Shown: positions 17,888 through 41,953 of the stretch, piece after piece
Layout of the letters: each line of letters starts with the position of its first letter
Position numbering within the stretch: position 1 is the stretch's first letter
Assembly (NCBI RefSeq): GCF_000217715.1
Contig: NC_015658.1
Span: 1-64,000, forward strand
Direction of reading: 5' to 3'
Origin: Halopiger xanaduensis SH-6
GTDB lineage: Archaea > Halobacteriota > Halobacteria > Halobacteriales > Natrialbaceae
Length of the DNA: 64,000 bases
The notes under the pieces: generated by a model
The model's input: the letters and a program-made list of their open reading frames with translations, nothing else
Database searches by the model: none
Told to the model about the DNA's origin: nothing
Position numbers and translations under genes: made by a program

Positions 17888-18802
17888 CTAGCCCTCGTTG
17901 GTTCCTCCGATCCGATCTCGGTCCGCACTGCTCGTATAAAACTGACAGGTAACGAACCAGTCAGCCCGACCGTCCGCGCTGGTCACGTCTACTTTCACCG
18001 GTCGTTCGAGTCCCGTCGCCAGTCCAGTTGCGAGAATCGACGGAATCGGGTGATCGAATCGATCGAGCGGGCCGACCGCACTATCCGAAATCGCGACCGT
18101 GACGCAGTCCGACTCGGGATCGAACTGGGGGTTTGCACGAGATGCAAGTTCGAACTGGTCGGTGATTCCGTCACAGAGCTGCACGGCAAGCGGTGCGGGT
18201 TTCTGGGCGAGTTCACCCGAGAGTGTGTGTTCGATCTCCCTCACGAGAGCCGCACCGATCGGCTCGAGAACTAGATCCTGCCGTTCCTCGAGACTAGGCG
18301 CGTTCGTCGATTGGACCGTGTTCAGCGTCCGCCCACGCTCGTGTCGCGGCACGCATAGCCGAGGTGATTGGGTTCCTTTGCCGGGTCGATAGATACGAAT
18401 GGATTGCAAATCGAGGGCGCTCGCGAGCATCGACCAGTTATCAGCGGTCGTTCCGTAGATACGCTCGGCCACATTCGCAGCGACGAATCGTTCGGGGGTT
18501 ACGTAGTATGTGAGTACCGCTCCGTACACGCCGATCGCTCCGAGCGCGACGAACACGGTGCGTTCAGCAGGTAACAGTACGCCTCCTGCAAGCATTGCGA
18601 GGCCGACCGTCGCGAGTACGAGAGCCGCCCGCCGGTAAGTTTTACGCGCTCGCACGTACTCCTTATACGGATTCTCGGATCCGAGGAATTCGATTCGCGA
18701 CGCGATATCGAATCGATCGGTCCGAGCTGTCGTCGCCGCTACTGGAGCGGTAGTCGATCCGCCATCCGTCTCCGATCGTTCGGTGGGTTGTGACGTACTC
18801 AT
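17888..18802 (-). CDS. Haloarchaeal membrane protein of unknown function
   Basis: 304 residues from ATG 18802 (ATG 18811 would add three). A polar N-terminus is followed by YKEYVRARKTYRRAALVLAT and two membrane helices (about 60-80 and 84-102). The remaining 200 residues are soluble, with alternating strands and helices and no motif I can name. The layout, two helices after 'NPYKEYVRARKTYR' then a large globular domain, recurs in haloarchaea. It is divergent from the DUF1616-like gene at 19098. Confidence 0.65.
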   Translation of the reverse strand: MSTSQPTERSETDGGSTTAPVAATTARTDRFDIASRIEFLGSENPYKEYVRARKTYRRAALVLATVGLAMLAGGVLLPAERTVFVALGAIGVYGAVLTYYVTPERFVAANVAERIYGTTADNWSMLASALDLQSIRIYRPGKGTQSPRLCVPRHERGRTLNTVQSTNAPSLEERQDLVLEPIGAALVREIEHTLSGELAQKPAPLAVQLCDGITDQFELASRANPQFDPESDCVTVAISDSAVGPLDRFDHPIPSILATGLATGLERPVKVDVTSADGRADWFVTCQFYTSSADRDRIGGTNEG

Positions 18803-19097
18803 TGGGATCATCCCGTTCTGTCGACTTCGAGGGGGCGTGCGTCGGTGTCGTTCACGCTCACCGGTCCGTCGATCGACACGGTCGGGACGGCCGCGTAACG
18901 CGTCGATATTCTATCCGGATAGGGTCGATTCTCTATCCGGACTCGTTACGTTTGATTCGTATCTCTCTAATTTTGTGTGTTCTGTGTTGAAATTACCGGT
19001 TCCACGTCTTTCGATCGCGCGCAGTTTCCAGGGACTGGAAACGATAGTTGAGCCGATCGACCGATTTTTCATGGTTAGTAAACATATCCCGCACCGA

Positions 19098-20150
19098 ATG
19101 GAAGACCGACGAATACAGCGATTTGATGTTCCCGACCGAGCACGCCGGTTGCCGGCCGATCTCGCAGCGGCCGTCGTCGTCACCGGACTAGTCAACGGTG
19201 CCGTGTTCGTGCCGATACTGCGTGAGACGCCGCTTCGGATCCCGCTCGGGCTCGTCTTCGTTCTATTTGTTCCCGGATACGTCTCCGTTGCCGCTCTCTT
19301 TCCCGAAGACGGGACGGCTATCGCGACGTCGGCGACTAGTGGTCAGTCTCGAGAGACTAGCTGGGGACTCAGTCCGCTTCACCGGCCGGGAATTAATCGG
19401 CTCGAACGCATCGCGCTCTCCTTTGGCGGAAGCCTCGCTGTCGTTCCGTTGATTGGGCTCGCTCTCAACTTCACTCCGTGGGGCGTTCGATTGATCCCGA
19501 TCACGCTCGCGCTGACTAGTTTCACGATCGCTATGACCGCGATTGCCGCCGTTCGACGGTGGCGACTTTCCGACGAAGACCGATTTCGCATTCCGTACCG
19601 CGAGTGGTACCGCGCTGGCCGGAGCGAGCTTTTCGAGTCGCCGTCGCGTCGCGGGACGATCCTGAACGTCCTACTCGTCGCCTCCGTCGTCCTCGCCGCC
19701 GGGACGGTCTCGTTTGCAGTCGTCGTCTCGCAGGAAAGCGAACAGTACTCCGCCGTGTATCTGCTTTCCGAGACCGAGGACGGAGAACTAGTTGCCGATA
19801 ACTATACCACCGAATTCGCGCATGGAGAGTCGCAACCGATCACCGTCGGCGTCGACAACCACGAATACGAAGCGACCAACTATACCGTCGTCCTGCTCGA
19901 GCAGTCCGTAACCGTCGACGACAACGAGACGATCGTCGAAGCGCAACGCGAACTCGATCGCTTCGAGACGCGGTTAGCTCACAACGAAACGTGGCGCCAT
20001 CAACACCGACTCGAACCGACGATGACCGCCGAGAACACTCGATTCGTTTGGTTGTTGTACCCCGGCGGTAACGATATCGTCCCGGACGAGCCGTCGATTG
20101 ATACCGCCGAGTATCACGTCCATCTTTGGGTCAACGACGCGGAGACGTAA
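19098..20150 (+). CDS. DUF1616-like membrane protein
   Basis: 350 residues from ATG 19098; the open frame extends upstream but without protein-like sequence, and ATG 19071 is the other option. Four helices are predicted: ADLAAAVVVTGLVNGAVFVP, PLGLVFVLFVPGYVSVAALF (the DUF1616 hallmark FVLFVPGY), RIALSFGGSLAVVPLIGLAL and a fourth after GTILNVLLVASVVLAA. The C-terminal 140 residues are an extracellular beta-sandwich (NYTTEFAHGESQPITVGVDN, NYTVVLLEQSV) with N-glycosylation sequons. This family commonly sits beside archaeal surface-polysaccharide genes. Confidence 0.78.
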   Translation: MEDRRIQRFDVPDRARRLPADLAAAVVVTGLVNGAVFVPILRETPLRIPLGLVFVLFVPGYVSVAALFPEDGTAIATSATSGQSRETSWGLSPLHRPGINRLERIALSFGGSLAVVPLIGLALNFTPWGVRLIPITLALTSFTIAMTAIAAVRRWRLSDEDRFRIPYREWYRAGRSELFESPSRRGTILNVLLVASVVLAAGTVSFAVVVSQESEQYSAVYLLSETEDGELVADNYTTEFAHGESQPITVGVDNHEYEATNYTVVLLEQSVTVDDNETIVEAQRELDRFETRLAHNETWRHQHRLEPTMTAENTRFVWLLYPGGNDIVPDEPSIDTAEYHVHLWVNDAET

Positions 20151-20238: not shown

Positions 20239-22020
20239 TCACGACTGTGTCGCATAGAGGTCGGCGTAGGGCCCGTCGCGTTCGAGGAGTTGCTCGTGCG
20301 TTCCGTTTTCGACGACGGTTCCGTCGACGAGGGTGTAGATTCGGTCAGCATCGTCGATCGTCGAGAGGTCATGTGCGATACTGATCGTCGCGTACTGATC
20401 CTCCAATGCGTTGATTCCTGCATACACGTCCCGCTCGATGTTCGAATCGAGTTCGCTGGTCGCTTCGTCGAGCACTAACAGGTCGGCGTCCGTGAGGAGC
20501 GCTCGCGCGATCGCAACGCGTTGTTTCTGCCCGCCGGACAGCCGCACCCCGTCTTCGCCGAGTTCGGTCTCGTACCCGTTCGGGAGCTCCGAAAGGAATT
20601 CGGTCACTTGGGCGATCTCACAGGCTCGCTCGACCGCGGCTCGAGGGGCATCCCGATTGCCCACCTTGACGTTTTCGAGGAGCGTTCCGTCGAACAGGTA
20701 CGGATCCTGCCTGACCACGGCGATTCGTCGCCGCCACTGCGTCACGTCGAACGCTTCGATCGGCGTTCCGTCCGCGAGAATTCGACCGGTGTCGGGACGC
20801 TGCAATCGACCGAGCAACGACACGATCGTCGATTTCCCGGCTCCCGACGGGCCGACGAGCGCGATCTTTTCCCCGCGGGAAACGCCGAACGAGACGGACT
20901 CGAGGACTCGCTCGCCGTCGTCGTACGCGAACGAGACGTCGTCGAATTCGAGCCGGTCGATCGATTCGACGGGACGGTCACCGTCGGCGTCGCTCTGTTT
21001 CTTCGACTCGAGTTCGTGGATTCGCGACTGGACGCGGACGACGTGGGGCAGTTGCCCGTCCAATTGGTAGAGGGCGGTGTTTATCTGGTTCACGACGGGC
21101 GACAGTCGAAAGACCGCAAAGAGGAACACGCTGAGTTGCGCCAGCGTGAGACTCGTGTACCTGAACCCAGCGTAAACGAGCCCGAAGACGACGATGGCGT
21201 TCGAAAACCGATTGAGATTGTTCAGCGCCGCCTGGTTGCGCCGGAGCCTCACGCTGTCGGTTTCGTAGTCATCGAGCACGGTTCGCATTCGATCGACGAG
21301 CTCCGATCGCATGTTGAACAGCCGGACGTCGCGCATTCCCTGAATGGCGGTCTGGGAGATCGTCTGTATTCGGTCGTTTGCAGTCGCGATGTCGTCGCCG
21401 GCCGTGTACGCCGGCTCGAGGACGTACCGGACCGCTATCGTGCTCAGTCCGAGTCCCACGAGCGCGACCGCCGTCAGCTCCAGGGAGAGGAGCGCCGCGA
21501 TGACGAGATAGATCCCGCCCCGAAGCGTCACCTCGACGATCTTGAACCCCGCCATAGCGATCCCCCCGGCCCGGTTCGTTTCCGTGATGAGACTGTTGAG
21601 CAGTTCGTCGGAGCCGGCTCGGTCGATGTACTCGATCGGTCCGTACACCAACGAGTCGAACAGGCGCTGCCGGAGATGGCGCTGGTAACTCATACTGAGC
21701 ACCGACTGCAGCCACGCGGTGAGGAAACTCAGCACGAACCGGACGCCCATAACCGCTGCAACCCCGAGAATGAGTAGCTCGAGCGTGAACGGGAGGCCGA
21801 AAAACGAATAGAGGCGAACGAATGTTCCGAGAATCCCGTCTGCATCGCTCGGCGGTGCCGACGACTGGGCGAGTTCAACGATCGGGAGCAAGAACCCGAG
21901 TCCGATCCCCTCGAGAAGCGCCGTCGCGAGACTCAGTACGACGATTGCCGTTCCGAGGAGCGGACGAAACAGCATCGCCTCGTGGATCGCGGCCGCTTTT
22001 TCGCGGATGTCGCCTGACAT
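20239..22020 (-). CDS. ABC exporter, fused permease-ATPase (lasso peptide exporter D)
   Basis: 593 residues. The membrane domain (about 1-320) has six helices. The ATPase domain (about 345-590) has Walker A GPSGAGKST, signature RLSGGQKQRVAIARAL, Walker B LLVLDEATSELD and the switch His in ISIAHDLSTI. As a homodimer it would export a peptide, lipid or drug. Its place beside lasso B1, B2, C and A genes makes it the likely exporter and self-immunity pump. It is transcribed away from the biosynthetic genes, with a TATA-like box at 22050-22063. Confidence 0.9.
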   Translation of the reverse strand: MSGDIREKAAAIHEAMLFRPLLGTAIVVLSLATALLEGIGLGFLLPIVELAQSSAPPSDADGILGTFVRLYSFFGLPFTLELLILGVAAVMGVRFVLSFLTAWLQSVLSMSYQRHLRQRLFDSLVYGPIEYIDRAGSDELLNSLITETNRAGGIAMAGFKIVEVTLRGGIYLVIAALLSLELTAVALVGLGLSTIAVRYVLEPAYTAGDDIATANDRIQTISQTAIQGMRDVRLFNMRSELVDRMRTVLDDYETDSVRLRRNQAALNNLNRFSNAIVVFGLVYAGFRYTSLTLAQLSVFLFAVFRLSPVVNQINTALYQLDGQLPHVVRVQSRIHELESKKQSDADGDRPVESIDRLEFDDVSFAYDDGERVLESVSFGVSRGEKIALVGPSGAGKSTIVSLLGRLQRPDTGRILADGTPIEAFDVTQWRRRIAVVRQDPYLFDGTLLENVKVGNRDAPRAAVERACEIAQVTEFLSELPNGYETELGEDGVRLSGGQKQRVAIARALLTDADLLVLDEATSELDSNIERDVYAGINALEDQYATISIAHDLSTIDDADRIYTLVDGTVVENGTHEQLLERDGPYADLYATQS

Positions 22021-22049
22021 GTGTTTCGCGTAGCGTCTACCACGAAAGC

Positions 22050-22063
22050 GATTTAAATAAAAT
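22050..22063 (-). promoter_or_regulatory. TATA-like box for the ABC exporter
   Basis: ATTTTATTTAAATC on the minus strand lies 30-43 bases upstream of ATG 22020. Confidence 0.5.
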
Positions 22064-22162
22064 ACAGTACCACCCTCGAACCACCGGCCCGCTAGTGGAC
22101 GGACTAGACCGAACGAATGCGAAAGCTTACGGTATCCGCATTGGACTAGCGAGAAGACTACA

Positions 22163-22741
22163 ATGCTTCCGTGGGGCCATCTCGGCGTCGGCTATCTCGT
22201 TTACACTGTCGGAACGCGCGTCCTTCTGGATCGCCCGCCACAGGGGCAACCTGTACTCGCACTCGCGCTTGGAACGCAGGCTCCCGATCTCATCGATAAA
22301 CCGCTCAACTGGTGGTTCGACGTCTTCGACGGGCGAGCGATCGGGCACTCGTTGTTGACGACTATCCCGATTTGTCTGCTGTTGTTCCTCATCGGCAAAC
22401 GGTACGACCGCGGTGGTCTCGCGGTCGCCGTTTCGATCGGCGTCTTCACCCATCTGCTCGGCGATGCGTGGCGGCCGTTACTCGCGGGTAACTTCGAACC
22501 CGCCAGCTATCTCCTGTGGCCCCTGTTCTCGCCGCCGACGTATCCCTCGGATAGCTTCGCTGACCACCTTCAACAGTGGGTCGCCCACGTGCAAACGCTC
22601 CAGACATTCCCCTGGCGGCATCTCCTGTTTGACCAGTTCGGCGTCCAGTTGTTGCTCGCTGTCGTCGTCTTTACCGTTTGGGCACTCGACGGATTTCCCG
22701 GCGCTCGAACGATTCTGGACTGGATAACCCGCAGAGCGTAG
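22163..22741 (+). CDS. YdjM/DUF457-like membrane-bound metal-dependent hydrolase
   Basis: 192 residues, polytopic. The family's metal-site residues are visible: MLPWGHLGVGYLVY (His6), LGTQAPDLIDKPLNWW (Asp), IGHSLLTTIP (His) and FTHLLGDAW (His, Asp). About four to five helices follow the usual pattern. YdjM-type proteins are predicted phospholipase-like hydrolases. Its position between the exporter and lasso B1 suggests it may act in immunity or membrane adaptation, but it could be a bystander. Confidence 0.8.
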   Translation: MLPWGHLGVGYLVYTVGTRVLLDRPPQGQPVLALALGTQAPDLIDKPLNWWFDVFDGRAIGHSLLTTIPICLLLFLIGKRYDRGGLAVAVSIGVFTHLLGDAWRPLLAGNFEPASYLLWPLFSPPTYPSDSFADHLQQWVAHVQTLQTFPWRHLLFDQFGVQLLLAVVVFTVWALDGFPGARTILDWITRRA

Positions 22742-22873
22742 CGAGACGATTCAGCGCTCGGCTTCTGAGCGCCCGAGCGTGTTTCTAGTCCAAATGTCGC
22801 ACATAATCCGGATTCACGTCAGAAGGATTAATAGTTGTCCCCTCGATATCCCTCCTAATCGGGGGTACTAGAC

Positions 22874-23161
22874 GTGACCAACCTTTCCGCATCGACACAA
22901 GTCAGCCGAACTGAGAACTGCCTGGCAACGACGATCGACGGGGAGACCGTTATCCTCCACCGGGACGCGGAGAAATACTACGGTCTCAACGAGGTTGGGA
23001 CGGTCGTCTGGGACTCGTTACAGCGACCCCGAACGATCGAGGAAATATGTGATGAAGTGACCGCGACGTACGATGTCTCGGACAACCGCTGTCGAAACGA
23101 CGTCGAGGACATCCTAGTAGAGATGAACGAGAAGAACCTCGTTCGGTTCGAGACGACATAG
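22874..23161 (+). CDS. Lasso peptide B1 protein (PqqD-like precursor recognition element)
   Basis: 95 residues from GTG 22874. A winged-helix PqqD/RRE fold is indicated by GETVILHRDAEKYYGLNEVG, then TVVWDSLQRPRTIEEICDEV, and a C-terminal helix ILVEMNEKNLVRF. In split-B lasso systems this protein binds the leader peptide and hands it to the B2 protease and the C cyclase. It is 7 bases ahead of B2, in one operon B1-B2-C. Confidence 0.9.
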   Translation: MTNLSASTQVSRTENCLATTIDGETVILHRDAEKYYGLNEVGTVVWDSLQRPRTIEEICDEVTATYDVSDNRCRNDVEDILVEMNEKNLVRFETT

Positions 23162-23168
23162 CTCACAC

Positions 23169-23615
23169 ATGGGGCGAACGCCTTCGTTTCTCTCGTATTC
23201 GGTCGGGGATCAGGTTCGAGTGCTCGCTGCAGTCGCCCTGTTGCTCTCGCTGCCGCCGGTACTCGTCGTGATTCGGTTCGAACGGGTTCGGCGGTTTCTG
23301 TTACGGGCCAGCGACGTCGCGGCAGTAGCGATTCCCGGCGACCCCACGCCGGCCCGAATCGTTTCAGCTACCGAGGCGGCTGACCGCCAGCTGCCGGGAT
23401 CGAGGACGTGTCTCGTCCGGTCGTTGACGACCGAAACGCTCCTTCGTCTCTACGCGTTCACGCCAGACCACCGGATCGGCGTCACGAAAGGATCCGACGG
23501 CGCCGTGAAAGCGCACAGTTGGCTCGAGTTCGACGGCGAGATCCTGATCGGTGATCTGGAGGACCTCTCGCAGTACGAACCGTTACCACCCTTGAACCGA
23601 GGGACCAACTCGTGA
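23169..23615 (+). CDS. Lasso peptide B2 protein (transglutaminase-like leader protease)
   Basis: 148 residues. The Cys-His-Asp triad of the B2 family is visible: Cys81 in SRTCLVRSL, His116 in VKAHSWLEFDG and Asp122 just after. A hydrophobic N-terminal helix (about 17-35) precedes it. It would cleave the leader from the precursor made at 25641. Its stop overlaps the GTG start of C by four bases, showing translational coupling. Confidence 0.9.
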   Translation: MGRTPSFLSYSVGDQVRVLAAVALLLSLPPVLVVIRFERVRRFLLRASDVAAVAIPGDPTPARIVSATEAADRQLPGSRTCLVRSLTTETLLRLYAFTPDHRIGVTKGSDGAVKAHSWLEFDGEILIGDLEDLSQYEPLPPLNRGTNS

Positions 23616-25552
23616 GCGGTTTTGTCGTCCTGTTCAACCGTCAGGGGACCGGTCTCGATCGGGGCGTCGCTCGAGCGATGCTCGATCGGATCGACCATCG
23701 CGGTCCCGACGGGAGCGGGCTCTGGTGTGACGGGAACGTCGCACTGGGCCATCAGCACCTCCAGTCGACGCCGGAATCGAAGTTCGATGACCAGCCCGCT
23801 CGGGACGACGGTCTCGTCGTCGTCGCCGACGCTCGCCTCGATAATAGGGGTGAACTACGCCAGAAACTCGGGCTTCGGGAGGCTGGACGTCCCGTTCCCG
23901 ATAGCCAACTGCTTCTGGCCGCGTACAAAAAATGGGGTCGGAACTGCGTCGAACGGTTACTCGGTTCGTTCGCCTTCGTTATCTGGGACGATGATCGAGA
24001 CGTCGTCTTTTGCGCACGCGACCGGTTCGGCGTCAAACCGCTGTACGTTCACCGCGGCGATGACGTCTTCGCGGCCGCGTCCGAATTGAAGGCGCTGCTG
24101 ACTCATCCGGCCGTCTCGGCCGCCGTCGACGAGGTGAAGATCGGCGATTTTCTCGTCGGGCGGTTCGACGACAAAGAGCGGACGTTTTACCGGGAGATCC
24201 GGCGGCTCCCGCCCGCTCACACGTTGACTATCGGCACCACCGACGTCGAAAAGCGCCAGTACTGGGACCTCGATCCGACGCGAACGATCTCGCTTGAGTC
24301 GGACTCGGCCTACGAGCGTCGCTTCCGCGAACTCTTTCAGCAGGCCGTCGAGTGTCGCCTTCGGACGAGCGGCACCGTCGGGACGTCGCTCAGCGGCGGG
24401 CTCGATTCGTCGTCGATTACCGTGATGGCGCGGACCCTGGTCCCGTCGGCGAAATCGTTACCGACGTTCTCGAACGTCTACGACGACGCTCCCTCGAGCG
24501 ACGAACGCGAGTTCATCGAATCGGTGACCGCCCGGCGGGGGATCGAATCCAACTACGTGTTTCTCGACGACGTCGGATCCTTCGGGGATTGCGAGCGGAT
24601 GTTTCGCCACTACGATCTGCCGCCTCACGATACGATGCATCACGCTATCTGGGAGCGCGTGAAACGCGCCGATCGAGATGGCGTCGACGTCTTGCTGGAA
24701 GGCGCGCTCGGGGACAGCGCCGTCGGATACGGACTCGGATTTCTATCGGAGTTACTGCGGACGGGTCGCTGGTGGCAACTCTGGAGCGAGCTTCGAGCGA
24801 TGAGCGACATCGTCGGCGCTTCGCCGCGACACCTGTTCGTTCGACACGCGGTAGCGCCGCTCGTCCCGGAACAGCTCGATCGGTTGCGCTCGCGATTACG
24901 CGGCGACCCCATCCTGGAAGCGGCCGAAAACCCCGCCCTCGATTCGGCGTTTGTCGATCGAATCGGACTGCGACGCCGAATCAAAGCGACCGATTTGGGC
25001 GTCTCCGTCCTCCGAGAAACGGCACGCCGGCGCCAACGCCGGTCATTGCTTTCCGGACTGCTAACGGCGAGTTTGGAGACCGCGGATTTAGCGTTCGCTG
25101 CGTTCGGTGTCGAGCCGCGGTATCCGTTCACCGATACGCGCCTCGTCGAGTTTTCCCTCGCGATGCCCCCGTCACAGCAGCTTTCGGACGGATGGACTCG
25201 TTCGATCATTCGACGATCGCTCCGCGACCTTCTGCCGGAACAAATCCGAACGCGTCCATGGAAAACCGACATGAGTGAGGGGTTCTGCAATTCGTTAGCC
25301 CTCGAGCAGGAGGACCTTCAACGACTGGTCAACGATCCCGGCCCGCTAACGACGTATCTCGATGAGCAGGAACTGCGAACGACCTACGACCGGTTCCCCG
25401 GAAACGCCGATATCCGTGATGCGCGAGTGCTCTTTCGAGCGCTCTCGCTCTCGAAGTGGTTCGATGCGGATACCGTTGCTGATCGGAATCCTCGTCACAG
25501 CGACGGGGAACTCCACACGTCCGGTGTGCGTTCGTCGACCGTGGACGACTAG
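23612..25552 (+). CDS. Lasso peptide C protein (asparagine-synthetase-like macrolactam cyclase)
   Basis: 646 residues. The N-terminal glutamine-amidotransferase domain starts MSGFVVLF, so the Cys2 nucleophile of true asparagine synthetase B is replaced by Ser. The glutaminase is therefore expected to be inactive, as in lasso cyclases. The synthetase domain has the ATP motif LSGGLDSSSIT (residues 260-270). It would adenylate an acidic side chain and close it on the core N-terminus. It starts at GTG 23612, overlapping B2. Confidence 0.9.
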   Translation: MSGFVVLFNRQGTGLDRGVARAMLDRIDHRGPDGSGLWCDGNVALGHQHLQSTPESKFDDQPARDDGLVVVADARLDNRGELRQKLGLREAGRPVPDSQLLLAAYKKWGRNCVERLLGSFAFVIWDDDRDVVFCARDRFGVKPLYVHRGDDVFAAASELKALLTHPAVSAAVDEVKIGDFLVGRFDDKERTFYREIRRLPPAHTLTIGTTDVEKRQYWDLDPTRTISLESDSAYERRFRELFQQAVECRLRTSGTVGTSLSGGLDSSSITVMARTLVPSAKSLPTFSNVYDDAPSSDEREFIESVTARRGIESNYVFLDDVGSFGDCERMFRHYDLPPHDTMHHAIWERVKRADRDGVDVLLEGALGDSAVGYGLGFLSELLRTGRWWQLWSELRAMSDIVGASPRHLFVRHAVAPLVPEQLDRLRSRLRGDPILEAAENPALDSAFVDRIGLRRRIKATDLGVSVLRETARRRQRRSLLSGLLTASLETADLAFAAFGVEPRYPFTDTRLVEFSLAMPPSQQLSDGWTRSIIRRSLRDLLPEQIRTRPWKTDMSEGFCNSLALEQEDLQRLVNDPGPLTTYLDEQELRTTYDRFPGNADIRDARVLFRALSLSKWFDADTVADRNPRHSDGELHTSGVRSSTVDD

Positions 25553-25606
25553 GAACCTTCTTCGTTCGATCACCACAAACGGCTATTAATTCTACACGCC
25601 AGTCAG

Positions 25607-25618
25607 AATTAAGTAATA
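25607..25618 (+). promoter_or_regulatory. TATA-like box for the lasso precursor
   Basis: AATTAAGTAATA ends 22 bases upstream of ATG 25641, allowing the precursor its own leaderless, and perhaps stronger, transcript apart from B1-B2-C. Confidence 0.45.
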
Positions 25619-25640
25619 TCAGATATACTTATAGAATGCG

Positions 25641-25802
25641 ATGTCCGGCAACAAAGATAGCAGTCAGTACAGTCCGCCCGAACTGACTGAATACGGCTCG
25701 ATCGAATCGGTCACGGAACAAGTGAACAAGGAAGGAGTGGCGTCCGACCAGTGGAGTGAGAACACCCCGCTCCTCGGGTCCATCCAACCCGCTCCGACGT
25801 AA
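25641..25802 (+). CDS. Lasso peptide precursor (A)
   Basis: 53 residues, starting MSGNKDSSQYSPPELTEYG. The leader holds an exact YxxPxLxxxGxxxxxT lasso motif: Tyr10, Pro13, Leu15, Gly19 and Thr25. A core starting at Gly32 (GVASDQWSE) would put Glu at core position 9, right for a nine-membered-residue ring, leaving a 13-residue tail NTPLLGSIQPAPT that ends in Thr. In many lasso precursors the conserved Thr is at -2, but here it is at -7, so the cut site is unusual or differs. It lies 88 bases after C, with the kinase gene convergent just beyond. Confidence 0.85.
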   Translation: MSGNKDSSQYSPPELTEYGSIESVTEQVNKEGVASDQWSENTPLLGSIQPAPT

Positions 25803-25821
25803 CGAACAGCAGTATTTTGTT

Positions 25822-26721
25822 TTACTTTAGATCGGTAACCACTACCTCGACTAGCTCCGGGAGCCGCGCGTGATCGTCGGGTCGGCGTACTATTCGGATC
25901 GGCGCGGTCTCGACGACTCGTCGACACTGCTGGAAGTGAACTGCAAACTGGTCCGTATCGCCGAGCAAACCTCGAGCGTACGTTCTCGAGACGAGTTCCA
26001 ACACCGACTCCGGTCCGGATATCGCCTCGAGGCCGAGTTCGTCGCCTTCCCGCAGCACGTAACAGCCGGCTAGCGGGGCGGGATCAGGAATCTCGTCGAT
26101 CCGGAGCAATCGTTTCTCGTACCACGAATCCGAGAAGGGCGTCGTGCTGTCTTCCAGACCGAGGGCCGTCGCTGCGTCCGGTCGCAACCGCAGTTGCGGT
26201 ACGCCCGGTAGTACCGTGGGACCATTTGAATCGAATCGGATGGCGACGACGTCGTCCTCGAGAATCGAATACCCGCTCGCGTTGAATGCCGCCGCAGTCG
26301 TCGATTTCCCCGCGCCTCTCGGTCCGAGAAACACTACCGCCTGCCCGTTAACGGAGACGGCACTAGCGTGGAGCACTAGATGATCTCGCTGATGGAGGAC
26401 TAGTCCTAAGAGTTCGTTTTCGATGAGCCGGTAGAAATGCTCTCTTTCGACGACGTGCTCCTCGAGCGGATCGAAAGTGATCCGGTCGCCGTCTTCGACC
26501 AGGACGGAACCGAGGGAGTCGTACGTAAGCCGTACTGCATCGGGCGTTGCTTCGATATGGCGTCCCCCGCAATCTCCATCTCTTTCGGCCTCCGGAACAG
26601 GCTCGACGTTTCCGCGACATATCTCTACGTCCACGTCGGTCGCCCGTCTCTCGACGATCGGTAAGTCGGGCAGTCGGAAGTCCGAACGTATCGTTAGGTC
26701 GTACGCAGTGTGCTGTACCAT
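25822..26721 (-). CDS. HPr-kinase-like protein, candidate lasso tailoring kinase (K)
   Basis: 299 residues. The P-loop is FLGPRGAGKST (about 131-141), preceded by LVLHASAVSVNGQAVV as in HprK-type proteins. ILEDDVVAI supplies the second acidic motif. Homologues in bacterial lasso clusters phosphorylate the C-terminal Ser of the precursor; here the precursor ends in Thr, a plausible variation. It is convergent with the precursor gene, 19 bases between stops, and downstream of the nucleotidyltransferase. Confidence 0.82.
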   Translation of the reverse strand: MVQHTAYDLTIRSDFRLPDLPIVERRATDVDVEICRGNVEPVPEAERDGDCGGRHIEATPDAVRLTYDSLGSVLVEDGDRITFDPLEEHVVEREHFYRLIENELLGLVLHQRDHLVLHASAVSVNGQAVVFLGPRGAGKSTTAAAFNASGYSILEDDVVAIRFDSNGPTVLPGVPQLRLRPDAATALGLEDSTTPFSDSWYEKRLLRIDEIPDPAPLAGCYVLREGDELGLEAISGPESVLELVSRTYARGLLGDTDQFAVHFQQCRRVVETAPIRIVRRPDDHARLPELVEVVVTDLK

Positions 26722-26809
26722 TACTCTCTGCTATCGTCGTATTGCCTGTGTGTCCTACAGTCACCTATACGTTTGGCGAACGTCGTCTCCTGCGGACTCT
26801 TCCTAGTAA

Positions 26810-28012
26810 TCACGTTCCACGCGACTCCCGAAGCCGCGACAGCAGTATTCGACTCACCCGCAGCCAGCGCACGACGACATAAAGCGGAGCGAGCAGCCGT
26901 GGAAGCGAGACGGCCGTGATATCGGCGGGGGTGGGGGTACAGATTCCGCCGAGCCAGAGCCGTACTTTGTCGCGGTTGCGATCCAGCGTTCGGGACTGGT
27001 ACTGCTTCAGCCGGAAATTGTTCTTCCCGCTGAAGAGGTTACCGTACACGTGCGATCGTAACCCAGGAATCTCCGGATCCGATCGAATTTTCTGCCGAAC
27101 ATCGTCGGGAAGCGGAGCGTCGAGAAGACCGGCCGCGGTCGCGAGTCCAAGGTACACCATTCGTTCGCAGCGATGGGACCGGGCACGCCTATCGAGGGTT
27201 TCCCAGTCGAACGAACGCGTTCGTAAATACGCTGCAACATCGCAGATCCACTGCAGTCGCTCCCACCGATGTCGGGTTCCGTGAACACACAGCATGAGGA
27301 GCCGATCTTCCGGCGACAGAACGGGTAGCTCGCTGTCGGCGATCGACAGCGATTCGCGTCGACTCCAGACGGTCTCAAAGTTAAGCCGAGTCGGAAAGTA
27401 CCGGTCAACGATCTGCCAGTGTAGTTCGATTTCCGTGGCGGTCGACGGGTGTTTCAACGGATAATCGCGACTAACTCTATCGTAGACCCACTCCTGCGCA
27501 TCGGTGAGCTCGTACCACGGCTGATAGCCCCGCTCGTACAGTGCGGCTTTGGCTTTGGGGAGGGCATCGCGCGAAACGAGCAAGTCGAGATCGCCGAAGT
27601 CGCGTCGACCAATATCGCCGTACGCACGCTCGGCGATGACCGGCCCCTTATATGGAATCGCTCGAATCCCTCGGTTTCGAAACGACCGAACGACCTCCAC
27701 CAACTCTTGGACCATCTGAAGATTTCGATGCGAGCGGCGCTGCGCTTGTGCTTTGAGTTTCTCGAATGCTTCTGGCGGAACACCGTCCTGAGTGCGTAAT
27801 GCGTCTAAAACGAGGTAACTAACACCGTGCTTCCCGGTGATCGTAATCACCTCGTCCCAATTTAGCGCGTCTTCAGGGATAGCCACGGCGTCCGTATCGG
27901 GCTCGAACGCTGTCCGCACGCAGCGGACCACGAGTCGTTCTTCCGGCTCAAAATTAGTTTCATACCCTTCTTCGGTCATAGCTGTGCGCTGGTCTACCCG
28001 TCTATTGTGCAA
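26810..28012 (-). CDS. Nucleotidyltransferase-family protein, candidate lasso tailoring enzyme (N)
   Basis: 400 residues. The nucleotidyltransferase core (about 110-200) has IPYKGPVIAERAYGDIGRRD and then FGDLDLLVSRDALPKAKAAL, with the catalytic DxD. This is the NTP_transf_5-type family that accompanies lasso kinases in bacteria. ATG at 27979 (MTEEGYETNFEPEERLVVRC) is an alternative start. It precedes K by 88 bases on the same strand. The pairing suggests the peptide tail is phosphorylated and possibly extended with a nucleotide or phosphate. Confidence 0.82.
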   Translation of the reverse strand: MHNRRVDQRTAMTEEGYETNFEPEERLVVRCVRTAFEPDTDAVAIPEDALNWDEVITITGKHGVSYLVLDALRTQDGVPPEAFEKLKAQAQRRSHRNLQMVQELVEVVRSFRNRGIRAIPYKGPVIAERAYGDIGRRDFGDLDLLVSRDALPKAKAALYERGYQPWYELTDAQEWVYDRVSRDYPLKHPSTATEIELHWQIVDRYFPTRLNFETVWSRRESLSIADSELPVLSPEDRLLMLCVHGTRHRWERLQWICDVAAYLRTRSFDWETLDRRARSHRCERMVYLGLATAAGLLDAPLPDDVRQKIRSDPEIPGLRSHVYGNLFSGKNNFRLKQYQSRTLDRNRDKVRLWLGGICTPTPADITAVSLPRLLAPLYVVVRWLRVSRILLSRLRESRGT

Positions 28013-40816: not shown

Positions 40817-41953
40817 ATGGATATCGCGTTCGTCTCGAACGTCGTGTTTCCGTTCGTAAAAGGCGGTGCTGAAAAACGCATTCACGAGATCGGAACTCGA
40901 CTCGCTGCGGCAGGACACGACGTTACCGTCTACGGACGTCACTTCTGGGACGGCCCGCAAGTTACGGACCACGAGGGAGTCACGCTGTACGGCGTCGCGC
41001 CGTCGCGCGATCTCTACGCCGACGAGCGACGGTCGATCACGGAGGCGCTCGAGTTTTCCGCTCGACTGCTTCCGGATCTCCGTCGAAACGTGGAGCGACA
41101 CGACGTCGTCGTCGCGTCGCTGTTTCCCTACTTCCCCGTCCTCGCATCGAAGTTGATGACCCTGCTGACCGATACCCCGCTGATCACGACCTGGCACGAG
41201 GTGTGGCTCGATTACTGGGACGAGTACCTCGGTCGACTCGCCCCCTTCGGGAAGGCCGTCGAGCGTCTCACCGCCAAAGCGCCGCACTACCCGATCGCCG
41301 TCTCGAGCGTCACCGCCGATCGACTCGCGGAACTCGGCCCGTCGCGAGACGCTATCGCAGTCGTTCCGAACGGGATCGACGTCGATCAGATCGAAACGAC
41401 CGACCCTGCTCGGGACGGATTCGATGTGCTCTACGCCGGTCGACTCATCGAAGACAAGCACGTCGATTTACTGCTCGAGGCGTTCGACCGCGTCGCCGAG
41501 ACGGCGCCCGACGTCACGCTCGGAATCATCGGCGACGGGCCGGAGCGGGACCGCCTCGAGCGGCAGGTCCGGTCCCTCGAGCACGCCGACCGGGTGACGA
41601 TGCTCGGCTTCCTCGAGGAGTACACCGACGTGCTGGCACACATGCGCGCTGCGGACGTCTTCGCGTCGCCGTCGACGCGAGAAGGGTTCGGAATCACGTT
41701 TGCGGAGGCGATGGCGGCCGACTGTACCGTCATCGCAGCCGATCATCCCGAGTCCGCGGCCGCCGAAGTGATCGGCGACGCGGGCTTTCTCGCGTCGCCG
41801 ACCGCGGACGATATCGCTCGTCTCCTAGAGCGAACGCTCGAAGGAGAACGTCCCGCTACGGACCCCGCGCGTCGCGCGGAACGATTCGACTGGGATACCG
41901 TTACCGAACAGGCGGAACGGCGCTACCGGCGGGCGATAAATCGCGAGTGGTAA
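40817..41953 (+). CDS. Glycosyltransferase family 4
   Basis: 378 residues. The N-terminal motif is FPFVKGGAEKRIHEIGTRLA. The C-terminal domain has VLYAGRLIEDKHVDLLLEAF and FASPSTREGFGITFAEAMAA, the ExFGxxxxE motif. Retaining GT-B enzyme of the surface-glycan pathway. It diverges from the sulfatase-like gene, sharing the 149-base upstream region. Confidence 0.92.
   Translation: MDIAFVSNVVFPFVKGGAEKRIHEIGTRLAAAGHDVTVYGRHFWDGPQVTDHEGVTLYGVAPSRDLYADERRSITEALEFSARLLPDLRRNVERHDVVVASLFPYFPVLASKLMTLLTDTPLITTWHEVWLDYWDEYLGRLAPFGKAVERLTAKAPHYPIAVSSVTADRLAELGPSRDAIAVVPNGIDVDQIETTDPARDGFDVLYAGRLIEDKHVDLLLEAFDRVAETAPDVTLGIIGDGPERDRLERQVRSLEHADRVTMLGFLEEYTDVLAHMRAADVFASPSTREGFGITFAEAMAADCTVIAADHPESAAAEVIGDAGFLASPTADDIARLLERTLEGERPATDPARRAERFDWDTVTEQAERRYRRAINREW

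Follow-up and report, generated by a model that had tools for sequence, protein, structure and literature searches.

The window considered here, the first 64,000 nucleotides of contig NC_015658.1 of Halopiger xanaduensis SH-6, contains a real, complete and conserved haloarchaeal lasso-peptide cluster, of the type that carries kinase and nucleotidyltransferase genes. An initial annotation had recognized a precursor (A), a PqqD-like leader-binding protein (B1), a peptidase (B2), a cyclase (C) and an ABC exporter (D), and had read them as a split-B lasso system. All five are present in the places it gave, B2, C and A pass the NCBI lasso models, and the split-B assignment is backed by the family models, the active-site residues, the position of the cyclase in its tree and the recurrence of the genes in many genomes. 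The parts list was sound for these five genes, but overlooked a kinase (K) and a nucleotidyltransferase (N) within the same coordinates, whose presence makes this a tailored cluster of the paeninodin/pseudomycoidin type. We estimate at about 0.8 the probability that the cluster gives a cyclised lasso-type product, a figure that does not include the ring register. The genes and proposed sites are as follows (scores are followed by the family cut-off; RRE, recognition element of ribosomally synthesized and post-translationally modified peptides, RiPPs):

20239..22020, minus strand: D, ABC exporter, MsbA/HepA-like half transporter (permease and ATPase); PF00664 and PF00005 over cut-off
22163..22741, plus strand: YdjM-type (PF04307) membrane protein, putative metal-dependent hydrolase; PF04307 42.5 bits vs 29
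22874..23161, plus strand: B1, PqqD-type leader-recognition protein (RRE); PF05402 67.8 bits vs 23.4
23169..23615, plus strand: B2, leader peptidase (transglutaminase-like cysteine protease), Cys81-His116-Asp129; NF033537 90.5 bits vs 33; PF13471
23612..25552, plus strand: C, lasso macrolactam synthetase of the asparagine-synthetase fold; NF033535 611 bits vs 525
25641..25802, plus strand: A, precursor of 53 amino acids, leader to about residue 28; NF033521 19.3 bits vs 19
25725..25748, plus strand: codons of the proposed 8-residue ring, Asn29 to Asp36 (N1-K-E-G-V-A-S-D8)
25779..25781, plus strand: codon of Ser47 in the conserved G-S, the putative site of phosphorylation
25822..26721, minus strand: K, HprK-type kinase, H118-K139-D156-D157; HprK_rel_A 38.8 bits vs 200, cut-off not reached
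26810..28012, minus strand: N, PF14907 nucleotidyltransferase, PsmN-type; PF14907 226.7 bits vs 31.2

B1, B2, C and A are consecutive on the plus strand (22874-25802), while K and N lie on the minus strand, with K convergent with A. The best NCBIfam matches of D are HepA/MsbA types, each under its cut-off, and relatives of D are found in nearly all haloarchaeal B2 loci.

Cyclase, leader and distribution

C has Ser2 in place of Cys2 and an intact SGGLDSS ATP motif. The exchange of Cys2 for Ser noticed in the initial annotation is real, and it is common to the whole lasso-type clade: lasso-type relatives begin M-S, except for a few whose start was called elsewhere, whereas AsnB-type relatives begin M-C-G. 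In the tree the haloarchaeal cyclases, C included, form one clade (support 100/95) that is nested with lasso-type cyclases of bacteria and apart from the AsnB types, and within it the cyclases accompanied by N/D/E-K precursors form a subclade (100/100). The NF033535 score, Ser2 and the tree together rule out that C is an ordinary asparagine synthetase. The nearest relatives of the haloarchaeal cyclases are bacterial and belong to Chloroflexota, Bacillota, Bacteroidota and Pseudomonadota. This placement suggests that haloarchaea acquired their lasso cyclases from bacteria, though several of the branches in question are long.

The Cys-His-Asp set proposed for B2 holds in the aligned relatives, where Cys81 and His116 are invariant and Asp129 is mostly D, with E or H in a few. 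No solved relative of B2 was found by sequence, and its structure model gives weak, non-significant matches to transglutaminase-like proteins. Solved relatives of B1 include TbiB1 (5v1u/5v1v) and a lasso PqqD chaperone (9x90). The exact YxxPxLxxxGxxxxxT leader reported for A is borne out as Y10-P13-L15-G19-T25; it occurs once among the short open reading frames of the window and in none of 40 dinucleotide shuffles, which speaks against a chance origin. The score of A against the lasso leader model is borderline taken alone, and the leader is conserved in relatives. No close copy of the window's A was found, so the figures for selection refer to related loci only: in one species pair two precursors give pN/pS of 0.05/0.55 and 0.07/0.53, another pair gives 0.06/0.30 and a wider pair 0.17/0.49, indicating purifying selection.

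A profile search of haloarchaeal genomes, suggested at the outset as a check of conservation, returned B2 over cut-off in 31 of 391 genomes and C in 15 of the 391, every one of them B2-positive. Named hosts from a separate scan include Halobonum, Natronoglomus, Halosimplex, Halorientalis and Halorubrum; a search of one further species from the window's genus gave no B2. Among named plasmids no near copy of the cluster was found, only one distant match in Antarctobacter, in a search from which the window's own record was possibly excluded.

Proposed core register and probable tailoring

Twenty-five unique precursors have in common a core of the form [NDE]-K-x-G-x3-D, with N as the first residue in 14, D in nine and E in two; the glycine is present in 23/25, and a later G-S in 23 is replaced by G-D in the other two. 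Since the search pattern demanded the K and the D, independent evidence comes only from the glycine of position 4 and from the G-S. Between the leader Thr and [NDE]-K there are two residues (n=11), three (n=7), four (n=3), five (n=2) or six (n=2). Whether the core begins at [NDE], one residue earlier or with the K, an acid falls at ring position 7-9 in all 25 precursors; a start at the equivalent of Gly32 achieves this in 18/25, and the Thr(-2) rule in 12/25. In the window's precursor, placing Thr25 at -2 leaves no acid at positions 7-9, while a start at Val28, Asn29 or Lys30 provides an acceptor. We prefer Asn29 because of the confined set of first residues, the resulting 8-residue ring, and the experimental demonstration of Asn as ring residue 1 in metanodin (PMC12670498); a start at Asn29 has a little less than an even chance, and one at Val28 is a less likely candidate. 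The predicted Asn29-Asp36 macrolactam would be compatible with all 25 precursors, and the Asn29 core would comprise 25 residues with a computed dehydrated mass of 2620.28 Da, plus 79.97 per phosphate and 162.05 per hexose. For the other starts the computed masses are 2719.35 Da (Val28), 2847.40 Da (Gln27), 2506.23 Da (Lys30) and 2249.10 Da (Gly32), with the same increments.

Several further precursors may be mentioned here. A Chloroflexi relative has a matching core layout, NKIGTDYD. Two haloarchaeal loci (L075:15192-15350, minus strand, and L080:5103-5246, plus strand) encode a textbook precursor near a second cyclase beside the N/D/E-K cluster; these second precursors have Thr(-2), Gly1 and Asp8, e.g. 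GRHFSRVD, so the classical register exists in those organisms too. At L095:8265-8420 and L087:11535-11678, lasso-type leaders are followed by glycine/arginine-rich or poly-glycine cores. In the open-licence literature no match was found that pairs the core motif TPLVGS or TPLTGS with a lasso peptide.

In K, residues H118, K139, D156 and D157 are invariant among ten aligned kinases, and a His-Lys-Asp-Asp set has been reported as essential in lasso kinases (PMC9266682); the structure model of K matches the PEPCK and HprK folds. Most of the haloarchaeal loci with B2 also have a relative of N. The C-terminal Ser of pseudomycoidin is phosphorylated by PsmK and given a hexose by PsmN (PMC9266682), while BsfK phosphorylates Ser3 (PMC10368454). 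By analogy, the product of the window's cluster is probably phosphorylated and perhaps decorated with a sugar. The phosphosite is most likely Ser47 of the conserved G-S, a site that we infer, as it lies six residues off the C-terminus. The mass put forward in the initial annotation omits these likely modifications because the kinase and the nucleotidyltransferase had been left out.

We propose, for the order of steps as well as for threading and export, that B1 would bind the Y-P-L part of the leader and present precursor A; that K would phosphorylate a Ser of the core, most likely Ser47; that N would add a group, perhaps a hexose or a nucleotide, to the Ser phosphate, as reported for PsmN in pseudomycoidin in the case of hexose; that B2 would cut off the leader; that C would activate the Asp with ATP and close the macrolactam around the tail; and that D would export the product.

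Some observations weigh against this interpretation. B1 and K stay under their NCBIfam cut-offs, the best model for B1 (NF033536, lasso_PqqD_Bac) giving 68.9 bits against 80. The window's A ends in Thr53 and not in a Ser of the kind modified by PadeK, the conserved Ser being internal, and BsfK uses Ser3 (PMC10368454). The Thr-core spacing varies from 2 to 6, and the usual Thr(-2) rule fails in 13/25 precursors, that of the window included. The usual lasso leader anchors are Tyr(-17), Pro(-14), Leu(-12) and Thr(-2), and Ile(-2) is a known departure from the last of these (PMC10368454). A core that starts at Gln27 and closes a larger Gln1-Asp10 ring would keep all four anchors, and the 11 precursors with the shortest spacing do obey the rule, with an acid at positions 8 and 9. 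However, across the 25 precursors the shared Asp would then stand at positions 9 to 13, so that ring size would vary among close relatives; the strict Thr(-2) register is rejected by its failure in those 13 precursors, and we regard a Gln27 core as improbable. The core advanced in the initial annotation, 22 residues from Gly32 with a Gly1-Glu9 ring and no tailoring, appears more improbable still. Lasso cores begin with Gly more often than with any other residue, 23 of the 25 relatives have it here, and Glu40 would occupy ring position 9; yet in place of Glu40 relatives often have G, S, N or K, seven of the 25 precursors have no acid at positions 7-9, on which ground this start is rejected, and the Asp common to all would fall at position 5, too near for a lasso ring. 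Nor does that proposal account for the kinase and the nucleotidyltransferase.

Cyclase-less sister loci

In fifteen B2-positive genomes, 11 of which belong to a single genus (g33), B1, B2, K and N are present, in almost every case along with the exporter, but no lasso cyclase exceeds the cut-off (loci L081, L082, L084-L094, L097, L073 and L076). A twelfth B2 locus exists in g33, its precursor not being seen in the short stretch examined. Genome G002 was removed from the group because an M-S-G cyclase lies 20 kb from its B2. A hidden cyclase elsewhere in these genomes was looked for and rejected: the five candidates inspected, which come from four of the genomes, all begin M-C-G and are of the AsnB type. 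The genes flanking L081 are of housekeeping types, and no other cyclising enzyme was recognized there. The precursors of cyclase-less loci, e.g. MKEYETPSVETYGTVEEKT-NWWDHDDGYGKWS, differ from those of cyclase-bearing loci and hardly vary within g33, where the precursor is a near-invariant peptide of 32 residues with the core NWWDHDDGYGKWS, its final S changed to D in two genomes. L073:14726-18429 (minus strand) contains six precursor genes with near-identical leaders and differing short cores, four of them with GSEP. A 2023 genome paper noted a cluster of this kind, combining B1 and B2 with a kinase, in haloarchaea (PMC10093198). By analogy with the linear polyphosphorylated peptides (LPPs) of Bacillota, the cyclase-less loci may make comparable linear phosphopeptides, with B2 as the peptidase; they would then allow ring closure to be told apart from leader removal and phosphorylation.

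These loci bear directly on the possibility that the window's product is itself linear, or an unthreaded branched ring, i.e. a surface peptide that carries phosphate and sugar, with another role for C. B1, B2, K, N and nearly always the exporter do occur in sister loci whose genomes have no lasso cyclase, and LPPs are made without a cyclase (PMC13381572). The cyclase-bearing loci, however, retain an intact, conserved synthetase and the shared core Asp, and their precursors are unlike the cyclase-less ones, which makes such a product improbable. Comparably small is the chance that the cluster is decayed or silent and gives no product. It resides on a replicon of 436,718 bp and not on the main one, the genome consisting of four pieces that total 4,355,268 bp, and the other searched species of the genus does not have B2; against this, all the reading frames are intact, the catalytic residues are retained, and the precursors of relatives are under purifying selection. 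We retain a cyclised, tailored lasso-type peptide as the favoured product.

Surface-polysaccharide neighbourhood and known systems

The cluster is flanked on one side by a DUF1616 gene (18783-20150, plus strand) and on the other by a series of genes of sulfatase-like, Wzx-type, glycosyltransferase and epimerase families. With phosphodiesterase and PHO4 genes, this series occupies window positions 28071-52131 and is apparently a surface-polysaccharide locus. Using the window's own neighbour genes as probes within about 10 kb, we found glycosyltransferase, sulfatase, epimerase or Wzx relatives near 14 of 17 cyclase-bearing haloarchaeal loci and near none of 16 cyclase-less ones (Fisher p 1e-6, to be read with the reservation that the loci are non-independent and most of the cyclase-less ones come from one genus). 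The glycosyltransferase at 40817-41953 has relatives at 508-550 bits in four other lasso loci, and a DUF1616 gene lies near seven of the 17 cyclase-bearing loci (e.g. L096:6943-8151 and L103:6959-8071). Paeninodin-type clusters of Bacilli are likewise reported to co-localise with capsule loci (PMC13381572). On the strength of this neighbourhood, we infer that the product may act at the cell surface.

The YdjM-type gene at 22163-22741 is a possible extra member of the cluster. Its subfamily is found in four lasso loci of different genera, the window's included; the window copy is 51-55% identical to those of the three other loci, as compared to 40% and 33% for two other copies in the same genome. 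A DDE transposase gene (PF01609; 5608-6429, minus strand) lies on the same replicon, about 14 kb off the cluster.

It is tempting to regard haloarchaea as the hosts of a distinct RiPP lineage, although we propose this only tentatively. One branch, cyclase-bearing and polysaccharide-linked, would have its leader-core boundary freed from Thr(-2), with the B2 site set by the [N/D/E]-K of the core and with Asn-, Asp- or Glu-first rings. The other, cyclase-less, would use the same B1-B2-kinase-nucleotidyltransferase machinery to make short linear phosphopeptides, from a near-invariant 32-residue precursor in one genus. Two questions follow: how B2 locates its cut site despite the varying distance between Thr and core, and why, in haloarchaea as in Bacilli, phosphorylated lasso clusters adjoin loci for surface polysaccharides. 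The unsettled leader-core boundary could make the window's cluster a variant lasso type.

The view that lasso peptides are little described in archaea holds for products, but not for clusters, which had already been predicted. Lassopeptides figure among the RiPP classes that antiSMASH surveys give for archaea, and in the papers searched the archaeal RiPP products are lanthipeptides (PMC12144867). PMC7533575, which cites Tietz 2017, refers to predicted lasso clusters of archaea and names Euryarchaeota as an underexplored source. According to PMC10093198, a plasmid of Halopiger xanaduensis SH-6 bears a lasso cluster, probably the one described here. No report of an archaeal lasso product made or tested was found in the open-licence literature; the 25 precursor sequences, the predicted masses and a haloarchaeal expression route, the one used for archaeal lanthipeptides in Haloferax volcanii H1424 with vector pTA1228 (PMC12144867), make archaeal lasso production directly testable.

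Among known systems, the LPPs of Bacillota (PMC13381572) share with the window's locus an RRE, an HprK-like kinase, an NTP transferase, an MsbA-like exporter, a Y-x-x-P leader and a polysaccharide neighbourhood. However, they use the signal peptidase SpI, of which no match was found among the window genes scanned, have no cyclase and carry another leader motif, whereas the window's locus has B2 and C. Metanodin, from a soil metagenome (PMC12670498), has Asn as its first ring residue, as does our peptide under the preferred register, but there the Thr stands two residues ahead of the core, and here four ahead of Asn29. Pseudomycoidin of Bacillus, with PsmK and PsmN (PMC9266682), offers the combination of kinase and nucleotidyltransferase beside lasso genes, a likeness of gene content and of the PF14907 family; its host is bacterial, ours archaeal. 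The paeninodin cluster of Paenibacillus (PMC9266682, PMC13381572) resembles that of the window in its split B, lasso cyclase, HprK-type kinase with H-K-D-D, and ABC exporter, and paeninodin clusters are often near capsule genes, as the window's is near polysaccharide genes. The differences are that the host here is an archaeon, that the conserved Ser stands six residues before the C-terminus instead of at it, and that the shared core starts with N/D/E-K.

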